From: a bacterium | GTDB lineage: Bacteria > Vulcanimicrobiota > Vulcanimicrobiia > Vulcanimicrobiales > Vulcanimicrobiaceae | DNA: 34,085 nucleotides | Assembly: GCA_021786705.1 (NCBI GenBank) | Contig: JAJYMV010000048.1 | Coordinates: 1 to 34,085, forward strand | Reading direction: 5' to 3' | Shown here: one piece after another, positions 2 to 10,753 of the stretch | Layout: each line of letters begins with the position of its first letter | How positions within the stretch are numbered: position 1 is the stretch's first letter | Made by a program: the position numbers and the translations under genes | The notes under the pieces: generated by a model | What the model saw: only the letters and a program-made list of their open reading frames with translations | The model's database searches: none | What the model was told of the DNA's origin: nothing

Positions 2-2332
2 CGAACCAGCGCGCGCACCTCCTCGGCCCTCTTCGCTTCTTTCGTCGCGAGCGCGATGTTGGTCGCCTGCGGCGGAGGTGGCGGTTCGAACCCCGTACCG
101 ACGCCGATGCCGACGCCGACGCCGATTCCGACGCCGACAACGGTGCCGACGCCGGGGCTCTGCACGGCCGGGGTCGGCATCGTTCCGACCGGTTCGGCGA
201 CCCCGACTCCGGGGCCGACGCCGGTCCCCGACACGCGCCCGTCGCCGACGCCCGCAGCGCTCTCATTCGTCTCGGTGCCGACGGGAATTCCGGTCAACGT
301 GAACGGCGCGTCGATCGGCGTCACGCCGACGGCGACGACGCCGCCCTACGGCGGCAGCGCGAATCCATTCCCGAATAGTCAGACGCTTACGACGGTTTCG
401 TTCGCCGGAGGCGGCGCGAACGGTTCCTACGCGCTCTGCGTGCAGAGCAATGCGAATCCGGTCACGATTCTCTACAACCAAAACGCCGATACGGCGGGAA
501 GCATCGCTTCGGTCGCCGCGGCCTCGCGCGGCCCGGCCTCGATTCCGTTCGTGCGCATGCCGGTCCGCCGCACGCCCGCGGTTGCACCGGCGACGCCGAT
601 CGCTCGACAGGCGACGCTTCTGGAAGTTCGGTACGCAGCCGCGGCGGTCGCCGTCGGGCGGGTGCACCCCTTCGCGCTCGCAGCGCGGAGCGGCGCGCTG
701 CTGGCGCGCACGATCACCCCGATCGATGCGCCGGTTCGCAGCGATATCGTGCGCGTCCCGGCCGGAAGCGCAGCGGTGGTTGCGGCACGGCTCCGTGCGA
801 GCGCGGGGGTTCTCAGCGTGCAATCGGTGCAGCAACGCTACCCGCTTAATGCAGCGCTGACGCCGGCTCCGAACGACAGGCTCTTCGATCCGCTCGATCA
901 ATGGGATATGTATCAGATCGGCATGATGCACGCGTGGAACTACGGCAGCACGTCGCCCGTGCCGGTTGGGTTCGGATTGCCCGCGACGAAGATCGCGGTG
1001 CTCGATACCGGCATCGATACCTCACCGAGCAATGCGTGGGCGCAGGCCGATCTCATCTCGCACGTCGGGATCATGGAAGAAGACGTCACGCCGGTCGGCG
1101 GCAGCGGCACGGTCACCACGCCGTGCCCGACGCCGTATCTCGGCGTCTCGTGCCCTGCGGTGCAAGATAACGACGGCCACGGAACCAATGTCGCGGGGAT
1201 CGCGACCGCCGCCGATAATAACGGCGTCGGTTTCGCCGGTGTCGCCGGCGGCGTCACGCTCGATTTCTATAAAATCTTCTCGGGTTCGGGAGCGAACGAG
1301 AGCGCGTCGACCTCCGACGAAGCAACGGCGATCTATCGCGCCGTCGCACACGGCGATCGCGCGATCAATCTCAGCCTCGGTTCGCAGCCGAATAGCGGCC
1401 CGGATTTCACGGAAGAAGATGCGGTGGAATATGCATTGGCTCATAACGTCCTCGTCGTGGCGGCCGCCGGAAACGAACGCAACCAAGGCGTTCAAGGGCT
1501 GGATTATCCCGCTGCCTATCCCGGGGTGATGGCGGTCGGCGCGACCGCACTCAACGACAACAATGCCTGTGCGGGAGCGATCTGGCCGAACGTGAGCGCC
1601 GCGTGCAGTGCCGCATTACCGACCGCCGATACGCCCGCGCCGGGTGAATTTGTCGCCTCCTACTCCAACAGCGGCCCGGGTCTCGGCGTCGTCGCACCGG
1701 GTGGCGACCCAAGCGGAAGCAGCGATAGCGACGATTTGCATTGGATCTCCAATCTCTACTCGACGACCGGAAGCCCGCCGTGTTCGACGCCTGCGACCTG
1801 CTATACGTTGATCGCCGGCACGTCGATGGCGACGCCGCACGTCACCGGCGCGGCCGCGCTCTTGCTCTCCGCCGATCCAAACCTGACGGTGCCGCAACTC
1901 GAAGGGCTCATCGACGGCACCGCCGATAATCTCAACGATCCCAACCAAGGGCATGGACGGCTCGACGTGTACCGCGCGATGGCGCAGCTCGAAAACGACA
2001 CGACGATCTCTCCGACGATTCCAGCGAAGGCGCAGTTCGTGGCGTTTGCGTACAGCAACAGCGGAGCGATGAACGCCGCCCCGACAATCGTCGATGCGAA
2101 CTTTACCGCCGGCGTCCCCGTAGCGGCGAACGGTACCTTCCGTATCGCCGATATTCCGACGAGCGCCACGGGCTATCGCATCGCGGTCTGGTTCGATGCA
2201 AATGGCGATGGAAAAGTCGACGCCGGAGATTATTTCGCCGCCTCGGCGCCTTGCAGCCCGAGTGCGACATGCGCGAGTGCGAGCGGGTTGGTCCCGACGC
2301 TGATTACGGCGTCGCCTTTCGCGCTGCCGTAG
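2..2332 (+). CDS. S8 (subtilisin-like) serine protease, predicted lipoprotein; 5' end truncated by the window edge
   Basis: Subtilase triad motifs IAVLDTGID, DNDGHGTNVAG and GTSMATPHVTG. Lipobox-like AMLVAC followed by poly-Gly and a PTP-rich linker. The frame stays open upstream of the ORF-track Met at 56 to the window edge. Confidence 0.9.
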   Translation, partial: RTSARTSSALFASFVASAMLVACGGGGGSNPVPTPMPTPTPIPTPTTVPTPGLCTAGVGIVPTGSATPTPGPTPVPDTRPSPTPAALSFVSVPTGIPVNVNGASIGVTPTATTPPYGGSANPFPNSQTLTTVSFAGGGANGSYALCVQSNANPVTILYNQNADTAGSIASVAAASRGPASIPFVRMPVRRTPAVAPATPIARQATLLEVRYAAAAVAVGRVHPFALAARSGALLARTITPIDAPVRSDIVRVPAGSAAVVAARLRASAGVLSVQSVQQRYPLNAALTPAPNDRLFDPLDQWDMYQIGMMHAWNYGSTSPVPVGFGLPATKIAVLDTGIDTSPSNAWAQADLISHVGIMEEDVTPVGGSGTVTTPCPTPYLGVSCPAVQDNDGHGTNVAGIATAADNNGVGFAGVAGGVTLDFYKIFSGSGANESASTSDEATAIYRAVAHGDRAINLSLGSQPNSGPDFTEEDAVEYALAHNVLVVAAAGNERNQGVQGLDYPAAYPGVMAVGATALNDNNACAGAIWPNVSAACSAALPTADTPAPGEFVASYSNSGPGLGVVAPGGDPSGSSDSDDLHWISNLYSTTGSPPCSTPATCYTLIAGTSMATPHVTGAAALLLSADPNLTVPQLEGLIDGTADNLNDPNQGHGRLDVYRAMAQLENDTTISPTIPAKAQFVAFAYSNSGAMNAAPTIVDANFTAGVPVAANGTFRIADIPTSATGYRIAVWFDANGDGKVDAGDYFAASAPCSPSATCASASGLVPTLITASPFALP
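98..155 (+). repeat. Low-complexity CCGACG-type tandem repeat encoding a Pro-Thr-rich linker
   Basis: Repeated ccgacgccgatgccgacgccgacgccg encoding PTPMPTPTPIPTPTTVPTP. Confidence 0.7.
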
Positions 2333-2335
2333 GTT

Positions 2336-2358
2336 TTCGGAGCGTGCTACGCTCCGAA
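2336..2358. terminator. Hairpin between convergent genes, possible terminator
   Basis: TTCGGAGCG-TGCTA-CGCTCCGAA, 9-bp perfect stem spanning the intergenic gap and the 3' end of the minus-strand oxidoreductase. No clear T-tract on the exit side. Confidence 0.4.
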
Positions 2359-3396
2359 GCCCACGGCGGCGAGGACGCGCTGCGTGGCGAGGCCGTCGGC
2401 GAAGGTCGGCAGCGCCTGCCCGATCGCCGGGGCGGCGTGGCTGCCGTCGATCTTGGCGACCCATGCGTCGTAGAGCTCCATCATCGGGGGCACGTTGCCG
2501 TTGATCGCGGCGAAGCGCGCATAGCGTGACGGCGCACATTCGAGTTCGTTGGTCTCTTCGTCGTCAACGCTGAACAGGCGTTGATCGGCGAACGCCTTTC
2601 CGCTGCTCACCGCCGTCCGGTTCTCGCCGTGAACGGCAAACGTGAACGAATTGACGGCGGCGGTGCCGTCGACACTCAAGCGCGCGACGACGCCGTTGGT
2701 ATAGCGGAGCAGAGCGAACGCACCGTCGTCGACCTCGCTCGTAAAGAGTCCATCGGCGTCGTACCGCTGCGGGTTGGCCGTCCGCATGCTCCCGACGACG
2801 GAGTCGGGCTGCATGCCGAGGAGCGCGTTCGACGCATCGATTGCATGGGAGAGCATCGCGCCGGCGATGCCGCCGCCGCGTGCGCGTTGAAACCACCATC
2901 CGCGTGGACGCATCTCTTTGGCGCGCAGGAAACCCATGAGTTGCGTGTACTCGATCTCGCGGATCGGATCGAGGTGCGCGTTGGCAACGAGTTCGGCGAG
3001 CGCGATTCGTTCGGGGCGAAAGCGAAACTCATGCGCGACCGCGCATGCCGTTCCCGCCGAGCGCTCGGCGGCGAGCATCGCTTCTGCTTCGGCGACGCTC
3101 AGGGCGAACGGCTTCTCGCAGAGCACGTGTTTTCCGGCACGGAGCGTGGCGAGGACGTCGTTATGATGGGCGAAGGGCGGCGAAGCGACGACCACGGCAT
3201 CGAGCGCGCATCCGGCGAGCATCTCCGCACACGATGGGAAGCTCTGCGCGATCCCTTGCTCCGAACCGATTCGCGCCGCATTGCGCGGCGAGGCGAGAGC
3301 GACCACTTCGAAACGCGCGTGCGCGCGTAATGCCGGGAGGTGCGTGCTCGCACCGAAGCCGCTGCCGACGATGCCGACGCGAAGCGGGGCGCTCAT
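2347..3396 (-). CDS. Gfo/Idh/MocA-family NAD(P)-dependent oxidoreductase
   Basis: N-terminal RVGIVGSGFGASTHLPAL Rossmann motif and GKHVLCEKPFAL motif. Start set at ATG 3396, inside the longer ORF, which overlaps the upstream gene's stop by ATGA. Confidence 0.88.
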   Translation of the reverse strand: MSAPLRVGIVGSGFGASTHLPALRAHARFEVVALASPRNAARIGSEQGIAQSFPSCAEMLAGCALDAVVVASPPFAHHNDVLATLRAGKHVLCEKPFALSVAEAEAMLAAERSAGTACAVAHEFRFRPERIALAELVANAHLDPIREIEYTQLMGFLRAKEMRPRGWWFQRARGGGIAGAMLSHAIDASNALLGMQPDSVVGSMRTANPQRYDADGLFTSEVDDGAFALLRYTNGVVARLSVDGTAAVNSFTFAVHGENRTAVSSGKAFADQRLFSVDDEETNELECAPSRYARFAAINGNVPPMMELYDAWVAKIDGSHAAPAIGQALPTFADGLATQRVLAAVGFGA

Positions 3397-4694
3397 CGCA
3401 GGCCCAACGCACGATCGAGCAGATCGATCGCGCGAAAGAGTTGGCGCTCGCTCATCACGAGTGGCGGTGTTATCGAGATCACGTTTCCCTCCGGTCCGGC
3501 TTGCAATAAAAGTACTCCGAGCGAGAGTCCGCGTACCACCGCGGCATGCGCGCTCGCCGCGCTGTCGAGTTCGATGCCCCACATCATGCCGCGCCCGCGA
3601 ATATCGATCACGCTCTTGTGGCGGTGCAGGCTTCCCAGCCGCGAGACCATCGTGACGCCGAGCTGTTTCGCGCGCGTGACCAGATCGTGCCGTTCGATCT
3701 CGCCGATCGTCGCTAATGCGGCGGCGCAGGCGAGGGGGTTTCCTAAAAACGTCGACGTGTGGAGCGCTTCGCCCTCGGAGAGCGGCCACGCGTTCATCGC
3801 CGCCTCGGTTCCGACGAGCGCGGCGATCGGCAGACCGCCGCCCATCGCCTTGCCGATGCAGAGCAGATCGGGAACGACCGCTTCGCGCTCGCAGGCGAAC
3901 ATCGTTCCCGTCCGCCCGAAGCCGGTCCAGATTTCGTCGACGACGAGCATTATCCCAAGTTCGTCGCAGATCTCGCGAAGGCCGCGCAGAAACCCCGTCG
4001 GCGGAAGAATCACGCCGCCGCGCCCCTGAATCGGTTCGACGACGAGCGCGCCGATGTCACCGCGCGAACGCAGCGAGCTGCGGATGCTCTCGAGCGCCGC
4101 CGAGGGATCGTCGTCGGCGGCATTTCGGGCGCGCGGGTACTCGAGAAAAAGCGCGTTCGCGGCGATCGCTCCGGCGAAGGGCGCGCGGAAGCGTTCGATC
4201 CCGGTGACCTCCAGCGCTCCGAGGCTCAACCCGTGGTACCCGTTGCGAAAACTTGCGTGGGCGGGCTTTCCGGTGGCGAGGATCGCCGTTTTGAGTGCAA
4301 CTTCGACGGCTTCGGAGCCGGAGGTCGCCAAATAGGTGCGCGTCAGGCCCTTGGGAACGATCGACGCAATGCGCTCGAGGAGTTCGATTCGCACCTCGCT
4401 CGGATGAACGTCGCCCATGCCGTGGGCGAGCCGCACTACTTGGTCGGCGACCGCCGATGCAACGTAGGGATTGCTATGCCCGATTGCGGCGACGCCGAAT
4501 GCCGAGGTGAGATCGAGATACGCATTCCCGTCGACATCGGTGACGACCGAACCGAGCGCCGACTCCCAAACGATGGGGAACTGCTCCTCGATCGCGGTCA
4601 CGTTTTGCGACTCGTGGAGGCGCAGCCGCGCGAGCAATTCGGTGCTGCGTTTTCCGGGGACGGGGCCACGCACGTTTTCGAGGGGCTCGTTCAC
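3393..4694 (-). CDS. Class III PLP-dependent aminotransferase
   Basis: SGSEAVEVALK, VVDEIWTGFGRTGTMFA and LLCIGKAMGGGLP (PLP-lysine region) are typical of class III aminotransferases. GTG start overlapping the upstream stop. Confidence 0.92.
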   Translation of the reverse strand: MNEPLENVRGPVPGKRSTELLARLRLHESQNVTAIEEQFPIVWESALGSVVTDVDGNAYLDLTSAFGVAAIGHSNPYVASAVADQVVRLAHGMGDVHPSEVRIELLERIASIVPKGLTRTYLATSGSEAVEVALKTAILATGKPAHASFRNGYHGLSLGALEVTGIERFRAPFAGAIAANALFLEYPRARNAADDDPSAALESIRSSLRSRGDIGALVVEPIQGRGGVILPPTGFLRGLREICDELGIMLVVDEIWTGFGRTGTMFACEREAVVPDLLCIGKAMGGGLPIAALVGTEAAMNAWPLSEGEALHTSTFLGNPLACAAALATIGEIERHDLVTRAKQLGVTMVSRLGSLHRHKSVIDIRGRGMMWGIELDSAASAHAAVVRGLSLGVLLLQAGPEGNVISITPPLVMSERQLFRAIDLLDRALGLR

Positions 4695-5902
4695 TTCGTC
4701 TCTCCGTCACGGTCGAGAAAGCGAACGTATTCGGCGATCCGAGGGCGTCCGCCATGATGTGTTAGGAGCGGCGGCCGCTGCATCTCGCCAAGAGCGGCGA
4801 TACGGGCGGCGCCGATTCGCGATGCTCGTTCCGTATCGATGTGGCCGGTTCCGGTAACCCCGAGCGCTTCGATCGGCAGTGCAAACCGTTCGATGTACCG
4901 GGCGACCTCCTCGAAGGACTCCACTGGGACGAGTGCGACGGTTCGCGGCAGGAAGGGCGGAGGCTCGCGATCGGGCGGATCGAGGAGCAACAGGTAGCTC
5001 AGCGCGTCGTCGCACAACGCTCCCCCTCGCCCGGTCGCGGCGCGAAAGGCGGCGAGATTGCGCGCTTGGAGCATCGCCGCCCGGCTCGCCGCCGACCGCT
5101 GCCCGACCGGGAATTCGGTCGCGGCGCTCTCCATCGCCCGCGCGAAGCGCTCGGCGACCTCGCGCGGCGTCCGCGCGGCGGTGCGTTCGATGAAGAGCGC
5201 GTGCAAGCTCAGGCAGCCCTCGCCTTCGTAGAGGCTCGCGTCGCGAGCCGCGCCCGCGAGCGCCGCGTCGATCGTACGATCGTCGCGCTGTGCGGCTTCG
5301 TCGAGAAAGGCGATACTCGTGCGCGAACCGAAGCCGATGGTGCGCGCGCGCCCGGCACGATCGGCGGTGACGCGAGCGATCGTCTCATCTTTTCCGAATA
5401 CGACGATCGCGTCGACGTCGTGCAACCGCGATCCATCGTGCTCTCCATCCCAGGTCGCGACTTCGATTGCTTCCGCGAATGCGTCGAGCTCCTCGGCGAG
5501 CGTTCGCGCGAACGCCGCAACGAGTGCATCTTCGCGATCTTTCACGAGCACGTCGTTCTTCGCTGCGAGCGCGAAGCACATCGCCGGAATCGCGACGCCG
5601 ATCGTCGTACGGCTTGAAAGAATCGCCACGCGCCCGACCGGATAGATCCGTGCAGTCGGCCCGTCGAATGCCTCGAGATCGCCGAGTTCGCGACGGATCG
5701 TTTCGAAGAGCGCGTCGCTGTGAATCGCGCCGAAGAGCGCATCGAGCGCGTACTCGACGACGGGAATCGTGTATCCCGTCCGTTCGACGATTTCGCTTGT
5801 CGCTCGGACGCGCGGAGGAAAATCTGCGTCGCTCCAACGAGCGGCGGCGTCGCCGATCGCCGAAACGATCGATCGGAGCGGCACCGCCGAGAGTGCGGTC
5901 AC
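4691..5902 (-). CDS. LuxC-like acyl-CoA/acyl-protein reductase (aldehyde dehydrogenase superfamily)
   Basis: Overall LuxC-like pattern: ARIYPVGRVAILSSRTTIGVAIPAMCFALAAKNDVLVKDRED and candidate nucleophile Cys in LYEGEGCLSLHALFIE. Start chosen as GTG 5902, overlapping the upstream stop by GTGA. Confidence 0.75.
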   Translation of the reverse strand: MTALSAVPLRSIVSAIGDAAARWSDADFPPRVRATSEIVERTGYTIPVVEYALDALFGAIHSDALFETIRRELGDLEAFDGPTARIYPVGRVAILSSRTTIGVAIPAMCFALAAKNDVLVKDREDALVAAFARTLAEELDAFAEAIEVATWDGEHDGSRLHDVDAIVVFGKDETIARVTADRAGRARTIGFGSRTSIAFLDEAAQRDDRTIDAALAGAARDASLYEGEGCLSLHALFIERTAARTPREVAERFARAMESAATEFPVGQRSAASRAAMLQARNLAAFRAATGRGGALCDDALSYLLLLDPPDREPPPFLPRTVALVPVESFEEVARYIERFALPIEALGVTGTGHIDTERASRIGAARIAALGEMQRPPLLTHHGGRPRIAEYVRFLDRDGETK

Positions 5903-7011
5903 GATCGGCGAAGATCCTCGGCATCGAGCGAGCAGCCGCGCATTTGCGTTCCGTTCTCGCGGCCGAGGAGCACGAGCCCGTTCTCGACGAGCGCGCCGAG
6001 ATCTTCGGTGAGCAGCGCGAGGCACGAACTCCGGTTGGCGAGATCGATGTGCGCGAGCGCTCCGACGCTCCCCGGCGAAACGTCGCGTTCGCGTTCGTCG
6101 AGCACGCGCGTGCGCAACCACGGCGGCGCGGATTTGACGCGGTACGTCGTGCCGCCGACGATTCGTTCGGGCCCCGGCCGGTCGTAATACTGCGAGCAGA
6201 GCTCGCTCATCCCGTATTCGGCGACGATCCGTTCGGAGGGCACGCCGAGCGCGCGCTCGGCGCGCGCGTAGAGTTCCTCGCGCGCAACGACGCGCGAACG
6301 CCCTTTAAAGCCGCCGGTCTCCATGATCCGAGAGCCCGTGGGAAGGTGCATCGTCGCGCCGCGCTCTTCGAGCGTCTCGACGAGATGGAAGAGCGAAAAC
6401 GCCGTTGCGGCGAGGCAGAGCGGCTGCCCGCGATCGCAGGCGTCACCGGCATCGGCCAAAAAAGCGTCGACCAGCAGACGATCTTCGTCGAGATACCAAC
6501 CGGTCTCGCCGTCGCCGAATGCGACGGCGACGCGGCCCATCATGTAGCCGAGCGAGGAGTGCGGGCGTTGCGCGGGATTAGGAACGAGCAACGCATAGCG
6601 CAGGCGCATGCCATCCTGCAGCATCGCTCGTTCGAAACTCGCGAGGAGCGAGGCATCGTAGAGCCGGGGATCTTCGATGTAGTGTCGGCTCGGTTCGCCG
6701 AGCGTCGTGCCGCTGCTCTCGAAGACGAGGTCGGCGCGCTCGATCGGGAATGCGGCGATCGCCGTTTCTTTGTATGCCCGTGCCGGAAGCGGAGGGATCG
6801 CGCTCCAGGTCGTCGGCAACGCGGTCGGCGAGAAGCCGTATCCCGCGCAATACGCGGCGTATGCGGCGTTATAGCGGAGTTGGTGCGCGAAGATTGCGAG
6901 TGCGAGATCGTCGAACTCGGCATCGCTCGGGCTCCGTCCGTGCCGATGCCAGGCATCGATCGTTCCGAGGATGCGTTCGTCGAGTTCGGCGGCGTCGCGC
7001 TCGCGACTCAT
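5899..7011 (-). CDS. LuxE-like acyl-protein synthetase (acyl-AMP-forming)
   Basis: LuxE-family features: PLPARAYKETAIAAFP, VFESSGTTLGEPSRHY, AEYGMSELCSQYYD, and C-terminal RGCSLDAEDL containing the likely acyl-accepting Cys. Confidence 0.8.
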   Translation of the reverse strand: MSRERDAAELDERILGTIDAWHRHGRSPSDAEFDDLALAIFAHQLRYNAAYAAYCAGYGFSPTALPTTWSAIPPLPARAYKETAIAAFPIERADLVFESSGTTLGEPSRHYIEDPRLYDASLLASFERAMLQDGMRLRYALLVPNPAQRPHSSLGYMMGRVAVAFGDGETGWYLDEDRLLVDAFLADAGDACDRGQPLCLAATAFSLFHLVETLEERGATMHLPTGSRIMETGGFKGRSRVVAREELYARAERALGVPSERIVAEYGMSELCSQYYDRPGPERIVGGTTYRVKSAPPWLRTRVLDERERDVSPGSVGALAHIDLANRSSCLALLTEDLGALVENGLVLLGRENGTQMRGCSLDAEDLRRS

Positions 7012-7490
7012 CGCGTGCCCGTGCGACGCGAGGAGATGATGCCGCTATTGAGCCCCGCCGTCGCGAGCCCTCCGGTAAAGCGCGCGATCTCGACCTTGAT
7101 GCAACGGTCGACGACGACCTCGAGCCCCGCGGCATCGGCGCGCGCGATCGCCGCTTCGTTCACGACGCCGTATTGAAACCAAATCGCCTTCGCTCCGACG
7201 GCGATGCTTTCGTCGACGATCGGGAGGAGCGAGGCGGGATTGCGAAAGACGTCGACGATATCGGGCGCGCCGTGCGCGCGCGCGTAGTCGGCGAGCGACG
7301 CAAACGCGCGAATACCGTCGATCTCGTCGAGCTTCGGATTGATCGGCGTAACGGTGAACGCACTCTCCGTGCGTAAGTAGGAGAAGACGGTGTAACTCGG
7401 GCGCAAGGGATCGCCCGAGGCGCCGACCATCGCGATGGTCGTGCTGCGAGCGAGCAACGCACGGCGCTCTGCGACTCCGGTGAGAATCAT
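7008..7490 (-). CDS. CoA-binding domain protein (YccU-like)
   Basis: STTIAMVGASGDPLRPSYTVFSYL nucleotide-binding motif; VFRNPASLLPIVDESIAVGAKAIWFQYGVVNEAA. Confidence 0.82.
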   Translation of the reverse strand: MILTGVAERRALLARSTTIAMVGASGDPLRPSYTVFSYLRTESAFTVTPINPKLDEIDGIRAFASLADYARAHGAPDIVDVFRNPASLLPIVDESIAVGAKAIWFQYGVVNEAAIARADAAGLEVVVDRCIKVEIARFTGGLATAGLNSGIISSRRTGTR

Positions 7491-8791
7491 GCGCTCACCC
7501 GACGACCGGCGTGAGCCTTTTCGAGTGCCTGGTCGATATCCCAAAGCAAATCGTCGCACTCCTCAAGGCCGACGGAGAGGCGAACGGTCTCGGGAGCGAC
7601 GCCTGCAGCGCGCATTTCGTCGTCGCTTAGTTGCGAGTGCGTCGTCGACGCCGGATGGATGACGAGCGATTTCGCATCGCCGACGTTGGCGAGGTGGCTC
7701 CAGAGTTCGAGCGCATCGATGAATCGGCGCCCCGCCTCGCGCCCTCCGCGAATGCCGAAGGTAAAAACCGATCCGGCTCCGCGCGGAAGATAGCGAGTCG
7801 CGAGTGCGAAGTCGGGGTGCGAGGGCAGCCCGGGGTAGCGGACCCATTCGATATCGGGATGCGCTTCGAGGTGGCGCGCGACGGTCATCGCGTTGGCGAC
7901 GTGTCGCTCCATTCGGAGCGGAAGCGTTTCGAGCCCCTGTAAGAGCAGCCACGCATCGTGCGCCCCGAGTTGCGAGCCGACATCGCGAAGGATCTCCGCG
8001 CGCAGCCGCATGAGGAATGCGTACTCGCCGAAGGTTTCGGTAAAGACTTTTCCGTGGTAGCCGCGGCTTGCTTCGGAGAGCAAGGGGAAGCGACCGCTGC
8101 CGTAATCGAAGCGGCCGGCATCGACGACGACGCCGCCGACGGTGGTTCCATGTCCGCAGATAAATTTCGTTGCCGATGCGACGACGATATCGGCGCCGAA
8201 TTCAATCGGACGGCAGCAGTAGGGCGAGGCGAAGGTATTATCGACAACGAGCGGGATGCCGCTTTCGTGGGCGAAGCGCGCGAGCGTCTCGAGATCGGCG
8301 ATCGCTCCCGCCGGGTTCCCGATCGTTTCGACGAAGAGCAGTTTCGTTTCGGAGCGCATGGCGGCGCGCATCGCCGCGAGATCGCCGATGGGGACGAAGG
8401 TGACGGCGATGCCCATGCGGTCGAGGGTGATGGAAAACTGCGTCACCGTCCCGCCGTAGACGTTCTGCGAGCAGAGAATGTGGTCGCCGTTGCGCGCGAG
8501 AGCGAGCACGACGGCGAGCTGCGCTGCGAGCCCGCTCGAAAATGCGACCGCGCCGAGCCCGCCTTCGAGGCTCGCCATGCGCTCTTCGAACGAAGCAACG
8601 GTCGGGTTGCTGATTCTGCTGTAGATATGGCCGTAGCCGCGCAGCGCGAAGAGTTCGGCGGCCTCTTCGGTGGAGCCGAAGACGAATGCCGAGCTCTGAT
8701 AGATCGGGGCCGCGCGCGCGCCCGTGACGGGGTCGGGCGGCGTTCCAGCGTGGATTGCGCGCGTTGCAAAACCGAAGCTGCGGTCGTTCAT
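7487..8791 (-). CDS. metY: O-acetylhomoserine aminocarboxypropyltransferase / Cys-Met metabolism PLP enzyme
   Basis: FATRAIHAGTPPDPVTGARAAPIYQSSAFVF, YSRISNPTVASFEERMASLEGG and VVASATKFICGHGTTVGGVVVD (PLP-lysine). Start at ATG 8791. Confidence 0.88.
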   Translation of the reverse strand: MNDRSFGFATRAIHAGTPPDPVTGARAAPIYQSSAFVFGSTEEAAELFALRGYGHIYSRISNPTVASFEERMASLEGGLGAVAFSSGLAAQLAVVLALARNGDHILCSQNVYGGTVTQFSITLDRMGIAVTFVPIGDLAAMRAAMRSETKLLFVETIGNPAGAIADLETLARFAHESGIPLVVDNTFASPYCCRPIEFGADIVVASATKFICGHGTTVGGVVVDAGRFDYGSGRFPLLSEASRGYHGKVFTETFGEYAFLMRLRAEILRDVGSQLGAHDAWLLLQGLETLPLRMERHVANAMTVARHLEAHPDIEWVRYPGLPSHPDFALATRYLPRGAGSVFTFGIRGGREAGRRFIDALELWSHLANVGDAKSLVIHPASTTHSQLSDDEMRAAGVAPETVRLSVGLEECDDLLWDIDQALEKAHAGRRVSA

Positions 8792-8917: not shown

Positions 8918-10207
8918 GTGGGAATGACCCTCACCGAAAAGATTCTCGCGCGCCATGCCGGGCTCGACCGCGTCGAACCCGGACAGATCATCAACGCGAA
9001 GGTCGATCTCGTTCTAGCGAACGAACTCTCCGCCGCCGTTGCGATCGCCGTCATGCGCTCCATGAAGGGTGCGACGCGCGTCTTCGACCCGTCGAAAATC
9101 GCTCTCGTCGAAGACCATTTCGTTCCGGCGAAAGACGCGCAGTCGGCGAAGCTCGCACGGTTGATGAAAGAGTTTGCAGCGGAGCAAAAGATCGAACATT
9201 TCTTCGACGTCGGGCGCGGCGGCATCGAGCACGTCGTGCTCCCCGAAGAAGGGCTCGTCGCTCCGGGCGAACTGATCGTCGGCGGCGATTCTCACACCTG
9301 CACCTACGGCGCGCTCGGCGCATTCGCAACCGGTATGGGCTCGACCGATATCGCAGCGGCGTTCGTTCTCGGCGAAGTGTGGCTACGCGTTCCACCGACG
9401 ATTAAAGTCGTCTACGAAGGTGCGATGCAGGAGGGCGTCTACGCCAAAGACCTCATGCTGGCGACCGTCGGACGTCTCGGCATCGACGGCGCGACCTATC
9501 GCGCGCTCGAATATCACGGATCGACGATCGACGCGCTCTCGATCACCGGGCGCCTGACGATGGCGAACATGGCGATCGAAGCCGGCGCGAAGAACGGCAT
9601 CTTCCACGCCGATGAAAAGGCGCTGGCGTTCGTGCGCGAACGTACCGATCGCCCATTCGTCGTCGAACGCGCCGATGCCGACGCCGCCTACGAGCGCGTC
9701 GTGGCCATCGATGTCGCCGCGCTCGAGCCGCAGATCGCCTGCCCGCACACGCCCGATAACGTCCATCCAATCTCGGAGGTGCTCCGCGAGCGCGTGCAGC
9801 TCGACCAGATCTTTATCGGCAGCTGCACCAACGGCTACATCGAGGATTTGCGGATCGCTGCAAAGATTCTCCACGGCAAGAAAATTGCGCCGAGCCTGCG
9901 CGTTATCGTGAATCCCGGCTCGCAAAAAGTCTGGATGCAGGCAGCCGATGAAGGCATTCTCAAAACCTTGGCGAGCGCCGGATGCGTCGTCAACACGCCG
10001 GGCTGCGGGGCGTGCTTCGGCGGGCATATGGGGACGCTTGGAGACGGCGAGCGTTGCCTTTCGACGACCAACCGCAATTACGTCGGGCGCATGGGCTCGC
10101 CGAAAGCGGAGGTCTATCTCGCTTCACCGGCGACCTGTGCCGCATCGGCACTCACCGGGAGTATCACCGACCCGCGCGTCGTCGAACGCGCACCGGCCTA
10201 TTCATAA
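8918..10207 (+). CDS. leuC: 3-isopropylmalate dehydratase large subunit (aconitase family)
   Basis: GGDSHTCTYGALGAFATGMGSTD, FIGSCTNGYIEDL and GCGACFGGHMG (Fe-S cysteines). Adjacent to the small subunit. Confidence 0.93.
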   Translation: MGMTLTEKILARHAGLDRVEPGQIINAKVDLVLANELSAAVAIAVMRSMKGATRVFDPSKIALVEDHFVPAKDAQSAKLARLMKEFAAEQKIEHFFDVGRGGIEHVVLPEEGLVAPGELIVGGDSHTCTYGALGAFATGMGSTDIAAAFVLGEVWLRVPPTIKVVYEGAMQEGVYAKDLMLATVGRLGIDGATYRALEYHGSTIDALSITGRLTMANMAIEAGAKNGIFHADEKALAFVRERTDRPFVVERADADAAYERVVAIDVAALEPQIACPHTPDNVHPISEVLRERVQLDQIFIGSCTNGYIEDLRIAAKILHGKKIAPSLRVIVNPGSQKVWMQAADEGILKTLASAGCVVNTPGCGACFGGHMGTLGDGERCLSTTNRNYVGRMGSPKAEVYLASPATCAASALTGSITDPRVVERAPAYS

Positions 10208-10246
10208 CGACGATCGCGCACGATAAAGAACGAGGAACGAAAAAGA

Positions 10247-10753
10247 ATGGATACGATGCTGCGCGGACGCGCTCACACCTACGGGAAAAACGTCGATACC
10301 GACGTGATCATTCCGGGCAAGTACTGTAATCTCGTCGATCAAGCAGAGCTCGGCAAACATGCGATGGAAGGCATCGATCCCGAGTTTTCCGCGCGCGTAC
10401 GAGCGGGAGATATCATCGTCGCCGATACGAACTTCGGCTGCGGATCGAGCCGCGAAGTCGCTCCGATCGCCATTAAAGGCGCCGGCGTTTCGGCGGTGAT
10501 CGCGAAATCGTTCGCGCGAATTTTCTATCGGAACGCGATTAATATCGGGTTGCCGATTCTCGAATGCCCCGAGGCCGTCGATGCGATCGCCGCCGGGGAC
10601 GAGATCGAGATCGATCCCGCCGCCGGCGCTATTCGCAACCGCACGAAAGGGACGAGTTATAAGGCCACCGAGTTTCCGCCCTTCATGCGCTCGCTGATCG
10701 AGGCGGGCGGGCTGATTCCCTACGTCGAGCGTCGGCTCGCCGAGCGCGCATAG
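10247..10753 (+). CDS. leuD: 3-isopropylmalate dehydratase small subunit
   Basis: GKNVDTDVIIPGKYC, NFGCGSSREVAPIAIKGAGVSAVIAKSFARIFYRNAINIGLP. Confidence 0.94.
   Translation: MDTMLRGRAHTYGKNVDTDVIIPGKYCNLVDQAELGKHAMEGIDPEFSARVRAGDIIVADTNFGCGSSREVAPIAIKGAGVSAVIAKSFARIFYRNAINIGLPILECPEAVDAIAAGDEIEIDPAAGAIRNRTKGTSYKATEFPPFMRSLIEAGGLIPYVERRLAERA

Follow-up and report, generated by a model that had tools for sequence, protein, structure and literature searches.

A LuxE-LuxC-aminotransferase trio as a predicted preQ0-independent route to the queuosine precursor preQ1

What do relatives of bioluminescence enzymes do in an operon without luciferase genes? In this study we analysed a window of 34,085 nucleotides (the whole stretch of contig JAJYMV010000048.1, assembly GCA_021786705.1) in which a LuxE-like and a LuxC-like gene are followed by genes for a class III aminotransferase (AT3) and a Gfo/Idh/MocA oxidoreductase. 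An earlier note on this DNA had described six consecutive minus-strand genes, these four among them, with no luxA- or luxB-like gene in sight. Open frames and Pfam bear this out: all six genes (Table 1) are intact, lie on the minus strand and score above the Pfam gathering threshold, LuxC and LuxE clearly matching the two families that the note had named for a check. No luxAB-like genes were seen among the operon genes, and luxD is missing among them as well. Neighbouring genes overlap by four bases (ATGA or GTGA) at 7487-7490, 7008-7011, 5899-5902, 4691-4694 and 3393-3396, and from these five successive overlaps the operon genes look like a single, tightly coupled unit of transcription and translation. 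The Gfo/Idh gene likely starts at 3396, as a longer frame of 480 residues crosses AT3 out of frame.

Table 1. Genes, predicted catalytic residues and flanking genes of the operon in the window
Feature	Position	Strand	Evidence or remark
MetY (O-acetylhomoserine sulfhydrylase)	7487-8791	-	operon gene 1; TIGR01326 589 bits (cut-off 495); Cys_Met_Meta_PP 435 bits; methionine biosynthesis
CoA_binding_2 protein	7008-7490	-	PF13380, 123 bits; co-transcribed
LuxE-like acyl adenylating enzyme/acyl-protein synthetase (CDG proposed as acyl)	5899-7011	-	PF04443, 48.4 bits (cut-off 24.9)
LuxE Cys360, predicted acyl acceptor	5932-5934
LuxC-like acyl-thioester reductase	4691-5902	-	PF05893, 140.7 bits (cut-off 21)
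LuxC Cys230, predicted catalytic	5213-5215
AT3, class III PLP aminotransferase	3393-4694	-	PF00202 (Aminotran_3), 344 bits
AT3 K282, PLP lysine	3849-3851
Gfo/Idh/MocA oxidoreductase	2347-3396	-	last operon gene; PF01408/PF22725; GFO_IDH_MocA 91 bits
LeuC/LeuD-type pair	8918-10753	+	isopropylmalate or homoaconitate dehydratase
Secreted-looking protein, 178 residues	10778-11314	-	no Pfam match
Large proline/threonine-rich protein	56-2332	+	subtilisin-type protease likeness by eye

From LuxE, LuxC and AT3 the earlier note had drawn a path from acid to aldehyde to amine. This chemistry seems well supported by the domains, by catalytic residues and conservation and by a natural LuxC-AT3 fusion in one relative, a single protein of 892 residues (L044:7555-10233). 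In the alignments, Cys360 of LuxE, Cys230 of LuxC and both K282 and D253 of AT3 are invariant, and the SSGT and EYGM motifs of LuxE are invariant or almost so. Profiles of LuxE and LuxC match chains E and A of PDB entry 7xc6 (2.4e-31 and 2.3e-27), with GCS on GCS in the first case and the catalytic cysteines aligned in the second. With this LuxC-LuxE fatty acid reductase of luminous bacteria the trio thus has both families, the aligned cysteines, the gene pair and the conversion of acid to aldehyde in common. However, it is distant in sequence (29.8 of 750 bits for LuxC and 26.2 of 550 bits for LuxE against the NCBIfam bioluminescence models, far under the cut-offs), comes without luciferase genes in the operon, is linked to queuosine genes as well as to an aminotransferase, and has a heteroaromatic acid as its predicted substrate. 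Closest in fold to the AlphaFold model of LuxE (pLDDT 88) are PaaK arylacetyl adenylate ligases and further enzymes that adenylate small or aromatic acids, a fold that would fit an aromatic acid substrate but is not proof of one. The operon LuxC is the only PF05893 match in the genome, and PADLOC returned no match for the trio. AT3 scores against models of GABA, putrescine, ArgD, LysJ and PigE aminotransferases but passes none of the listed cut-offs.

Similar logic is known from other pathways. PigE of prodigiosin biosynthesis combines acyl reduction and class III transamination in one protein, as the LuxC-AT3 fusion would; however, AT3 reaches only 276 of the cut-off of 850, and reductase and substrate differ. 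ArgB-ArgC-ArgD and LysZ-LysY-LysJ likewise activate a carboxylate, reduce it to a semialdehyde and transaminate it with a class III enzyme, but activation there is by a kinase and here by an adenylating LuxE, and AT3 stays far under the ArgD and LysJ cut-offs. In other classes of Eremiobacterota we noted proteins in which LuxC is joined to a PaaK-like, AMP-binding half (L054:7912-11761 and L055:4331-6928, about 865 residues), in L054 after LuxE and a threonine synthase-like gene; these fusions look like one-chain acid reductases of another pathway.

Which of the six genes belong together? LuxC is present in 54 of 60 relatives, and the order LuxE-LuxC-AT3 is kept in all 38 loci of the same class, one class of Eremiobacterota, among the 40 loci read in total. 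This conservation of the trio is far beyond chance. Tree distances of the three proteins correlate (r 0.8-0.9), as would be expected of a unit inherited together but also of shared ancestry. The flanks vary: MetY, the CoA-binding protein and Gfo/Idh accompany the trio in the close family only, and loci of a third family show different neighbours. Gfo/Idh lies beside AT3 in a conserved manner in the same family only, weakly in the sister family (about 30% identity); at third-family (f3) loci and at the loci read from other phyla, no such gene was found next to the trio. Because of this narrow distribution we rejected it as a core component; it is probably an accessory or passenger gene outside the pathway, and the earlier note's idea that it acts as a pathway enzyme probably does not hold. 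In the neighbourhood comparison that the note had proposed, LuxE-LuxC-AT3 recurs across the class and in other phyla, and Gfo/Idh in close relatives only; none of the outcomes that the note had named as refuting its reading turned up. The CoA_binding_2 protein is limited to loci of its own family, where it and MetY are probably paired passengers in the operon. Around the operon, the divergent LeuC/LeuD-type pair is a conserved neighbour in most of the family, the secreted-looking protein adjoins LeuD or MetY across the family, and the proline/threonine-rich protein has similar copies nearby in relatives.

The acid itself was suggested by queuosine genes beside the trio in Verrucomicrobia. The base precursor of the tRNA modification queuosine is preQ1 (7-aminomethyl-7-deazaguanine). 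QueD and QueE yield 7-carboxy-7-deazaguanine (CDG), which is normally converted by QueC to preQ0 and by QueF to preQ1 (PMC13329287, PMC11130926). We searched the genome at hand and 54 relatives of its class (55 genomes, G000-G054) and found QueF in none of them, though it is present in two genomes from other classes of the same phylum. QueC-model matches in the class are mostly weak and canonical QueC was not found there; the only match in the genome at hand is MnmA, and the strongest of the class, in G012 and G047, reach 83 and 72 against the canonical cut-off of 150. QueA is present in 56 of 60 relatives (PF02547, 405 bits in the genome at hand) and PTPS/QueD in 53 of 60. In the genome at hand, QueD and QueE form an adjacent pair (G000:C177); QueD passes the TIGR03367 cut-off with 91.2 bits, and QueE has its best match to TIGR04508 (128 bits, under the cut-off of that model). 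In the relatives read, a QueE is likewise next to QueD or close by. With QueD, QueE and QueA kept and QueF and canonical QueC absent, the class has both ends of the preQ1 pathway without the known middle. In the window the trio is not adjacent to queuosine genes, so that the link there is the phyletic pattern, and no preQ1 riboswitch or any other Rfam match was found near 16 sources.

The step from CDG to preQ1 turns a carboxylate into an aminomethyl group on the same carbon, which matches the combined chemistry of LuxE, LuxC and AT3. Hence we propose, with a probability of roughly 0.87 on genomic grounds, that the trio is a non-orthologous replacement of QueC and QueF in queuosine biosynthesis. 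The phyletic pattern in the class and in other phyla, the mutual exclusion with QueF, the linkage to QueE and QueD, the LuxC-AT3 fusion, the correlated trees and the invariant catalytic residues point to it. CDG would be supplied by QueD and QueE. LuxE would activate its carboxylate with ATP and carry the acyl group as a thioester on its own Cys360, from where it would pass to Cys230 of LuxC; LuxC would reduce the thioester with NAD(P)H to 7-formyl-7-deazaguanine, and AT3 would transaminate this aldehyde with an amino donor to preQ1, bypassing preQ0. The product would then be used by Tgt and QueA. In this scheme we infer that CDG is the substrate and an aldehyde the intermediate, which cofactor is used, and that the enzymes act on the free base and not on tRNA. 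Compared with QueC and QueF, the predicted start and product are the same, as are QueD and QueE upstream and QueA downstream; however, the trio has no homology to QueC or QueF, would pass through no nitrile and would take its nitrogen from the amino donor of a transamination and not from ammonia.

In Verrucomicrobia, genomes with QueF and genomes with LuxE occur in one class. Among 141 genomes from the class of locus L093, 66 have QueF, 66 have LuxE, none has both and nine have neither (Fisher p 9e-31, a value that ignores relatedness and is not to be read as a probability). As the kinship of these genomes is not given, the exclusion could partly mirror a few deep clades. The AT3 subfamily (at least 442 bits) goes with LuxE, also where the two genes are unlinked: it was found in 39 of 40 LuxE genomes, G114 being the exception, and in none of 40 QueF genomes. 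Queuosine genes are direct neighbours here. Strings of QueE-AT3-LuxE-LuxC occur at five loci (L074, L174, L175, L178, L187), LuxE-LuxC is followed by QueD at 15 loci of one locus set and at further ones of a second, unlinked AT3 adjoins QueE at 7 of 20 loci, and L177 holds QueE-AT3 and LuxE-LuxC-QueD inside 8 kb.

The trio is not confined to Eremiobacterota. Contigs with the labels Deltaproteobacteria, Myxococcota, Verrucomicrobia and Omnitrophota carry it too, mostly in the order AT3-LuxE-LuxC, and in a Thermoleophilia contig LuxE is divergent from QueD- and QueE-like genes, called by similarity only. LuxE was not found in viral contigs. Among 48 genomes of other phyla that were picked solely for LuxE, 46 have QueA and none has a genuine QueF; three of the four weak QueF matches in such carriers were scanned and all are FolE. 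Three of the 48 have QueC-family matches above 90 bits, and the two that were scanned (G067, G068) fall under the canonical cut-off.

Could these bacteria simply take up what they need? Many bacteria with QueA-type enzymes take up queuosine precursors (PMC11130926), and salvage of preQ1 or queuine from outside, with the trio making an unrelated amine, could account for the missing QueC and QueF. Yet QueD and QueE would be useless to a salvager and are both kept, as a pair, and an unrelated pathway leaves the exclusion between trio and QueF and the adjacency to QueE and QueD unexplained; we regard this reading as improbable. It seems just as improbable that the trio acts on CDG that Tgt has already inserted into tRNA, or that it makes a 7-deazaguanine derivative other than preQ1. 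Free-base and tRNA-bound substrates cannot be separated by sequence data, and other 7-deazaguanine products are known, phage DNA being one place where they occur (PMC6884629). However, the LuxE fold is of the ordinary small-acid adenylating type near PaaK with no extra RNA-binding domain seen, and QueA, present in nearly all carriers, requires the aminomethyl group of the preQ1 type. The poorest odds fall to a general acid-to-amine pathway on a fatty acid, on aminoadipate to lysine, on N-acetylglutamate to ornithine or towards a polyamine: the AT3 scores noted above and the fatty acids as classical LuxC/LuxE substrates speak for it, but LuxC and LuxE are far under the cut-offs of the curated fatty acid enzymes, AT3 passes none of those listed, and neighbours and phyletic pattern favour queuosine, leaving it chemically feasible but without genomic support here. 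Lysine, arginine, polyamine and fatty-amine readings were considered first, and abandoned because of QueE and QueD beside the Verrucomicrobia trio and the clean phyletic test.

The preferred reading, a trio that makes preQ1 from CDG, changes what the operon would be for. The earlier note had thought of a small undescribed pathway; comparative genomics favours a core step of tRNA modification, so that the note's reading is supported in part: its chemistry fits, its setting does not, and its role for Gfo/Idh probably does not. What would be new is the middle section of a known pathway, apparently different from and unrelated to the familiar one. We found no earlier description of a LuxE-LuxC-AT3 route to preQ1 in the open-access literature, a scope that leaves subscription papers and preprints outside. 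According to a QueC paper of July 2026, preQ0 is the common central intermediate of 7-deazaguanine modifications of tRNA and DNA (PMC13329287). We consider it very probable, with slightly less confidence than for the replacement as such, that many bacterial phyla have a second queuosine route in which CDG is turned by LuxE, LuxC and a class III aminotransferase into an aldehyde and then into preQ1, independently of preQ0, which would then not be a universal 7-deazaguanine hub. If so, preQ0 would fail as the common hub for a large share of bacterial diversity, with Eremiobacterota, many Verrucomicrobiota and carriers labelled Gemmatimonadota, Myxococcota and other phyla. Genomes without QueC and QueF that are now counted as queuosine salvagers would be re-scored as makers, which bears on models of micronutrient sharing. 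Widespread proteins annotated solely by their likeness to luminescence enzymes would gain a function, their family having been recruited to RNA modification.

Some further observations might be of use. QueC-family proteins occur in four genomes with the LuxE trio (G012:C50, G047:C18, G067:C52, G068:C76; loci L239-L242); their matches of 80-123 bits all fell under the canonical cut-off on scanning, and they may have other roles. Bacteroidota loci, including L126, L131 and L140, hold LuxE relatives of 31-35% identity without AT3 or a recognised LuxC nearby, a point that counts against the proposed route. The three Bacteroidota LuxE genomes that were tested have QueA and neither QueF nor QueC, and these relatives may follow this route as well, with its genes scattered or with a different aminotransferase. 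GTP cyclohydrolase is common to pterin metabolism and queuosine. Directly upstream of AT3, and divergent from it, a FolK-like gene is found at several Deltaproteobacteria/Myxococcota loci (L068, L079, L081, L084).
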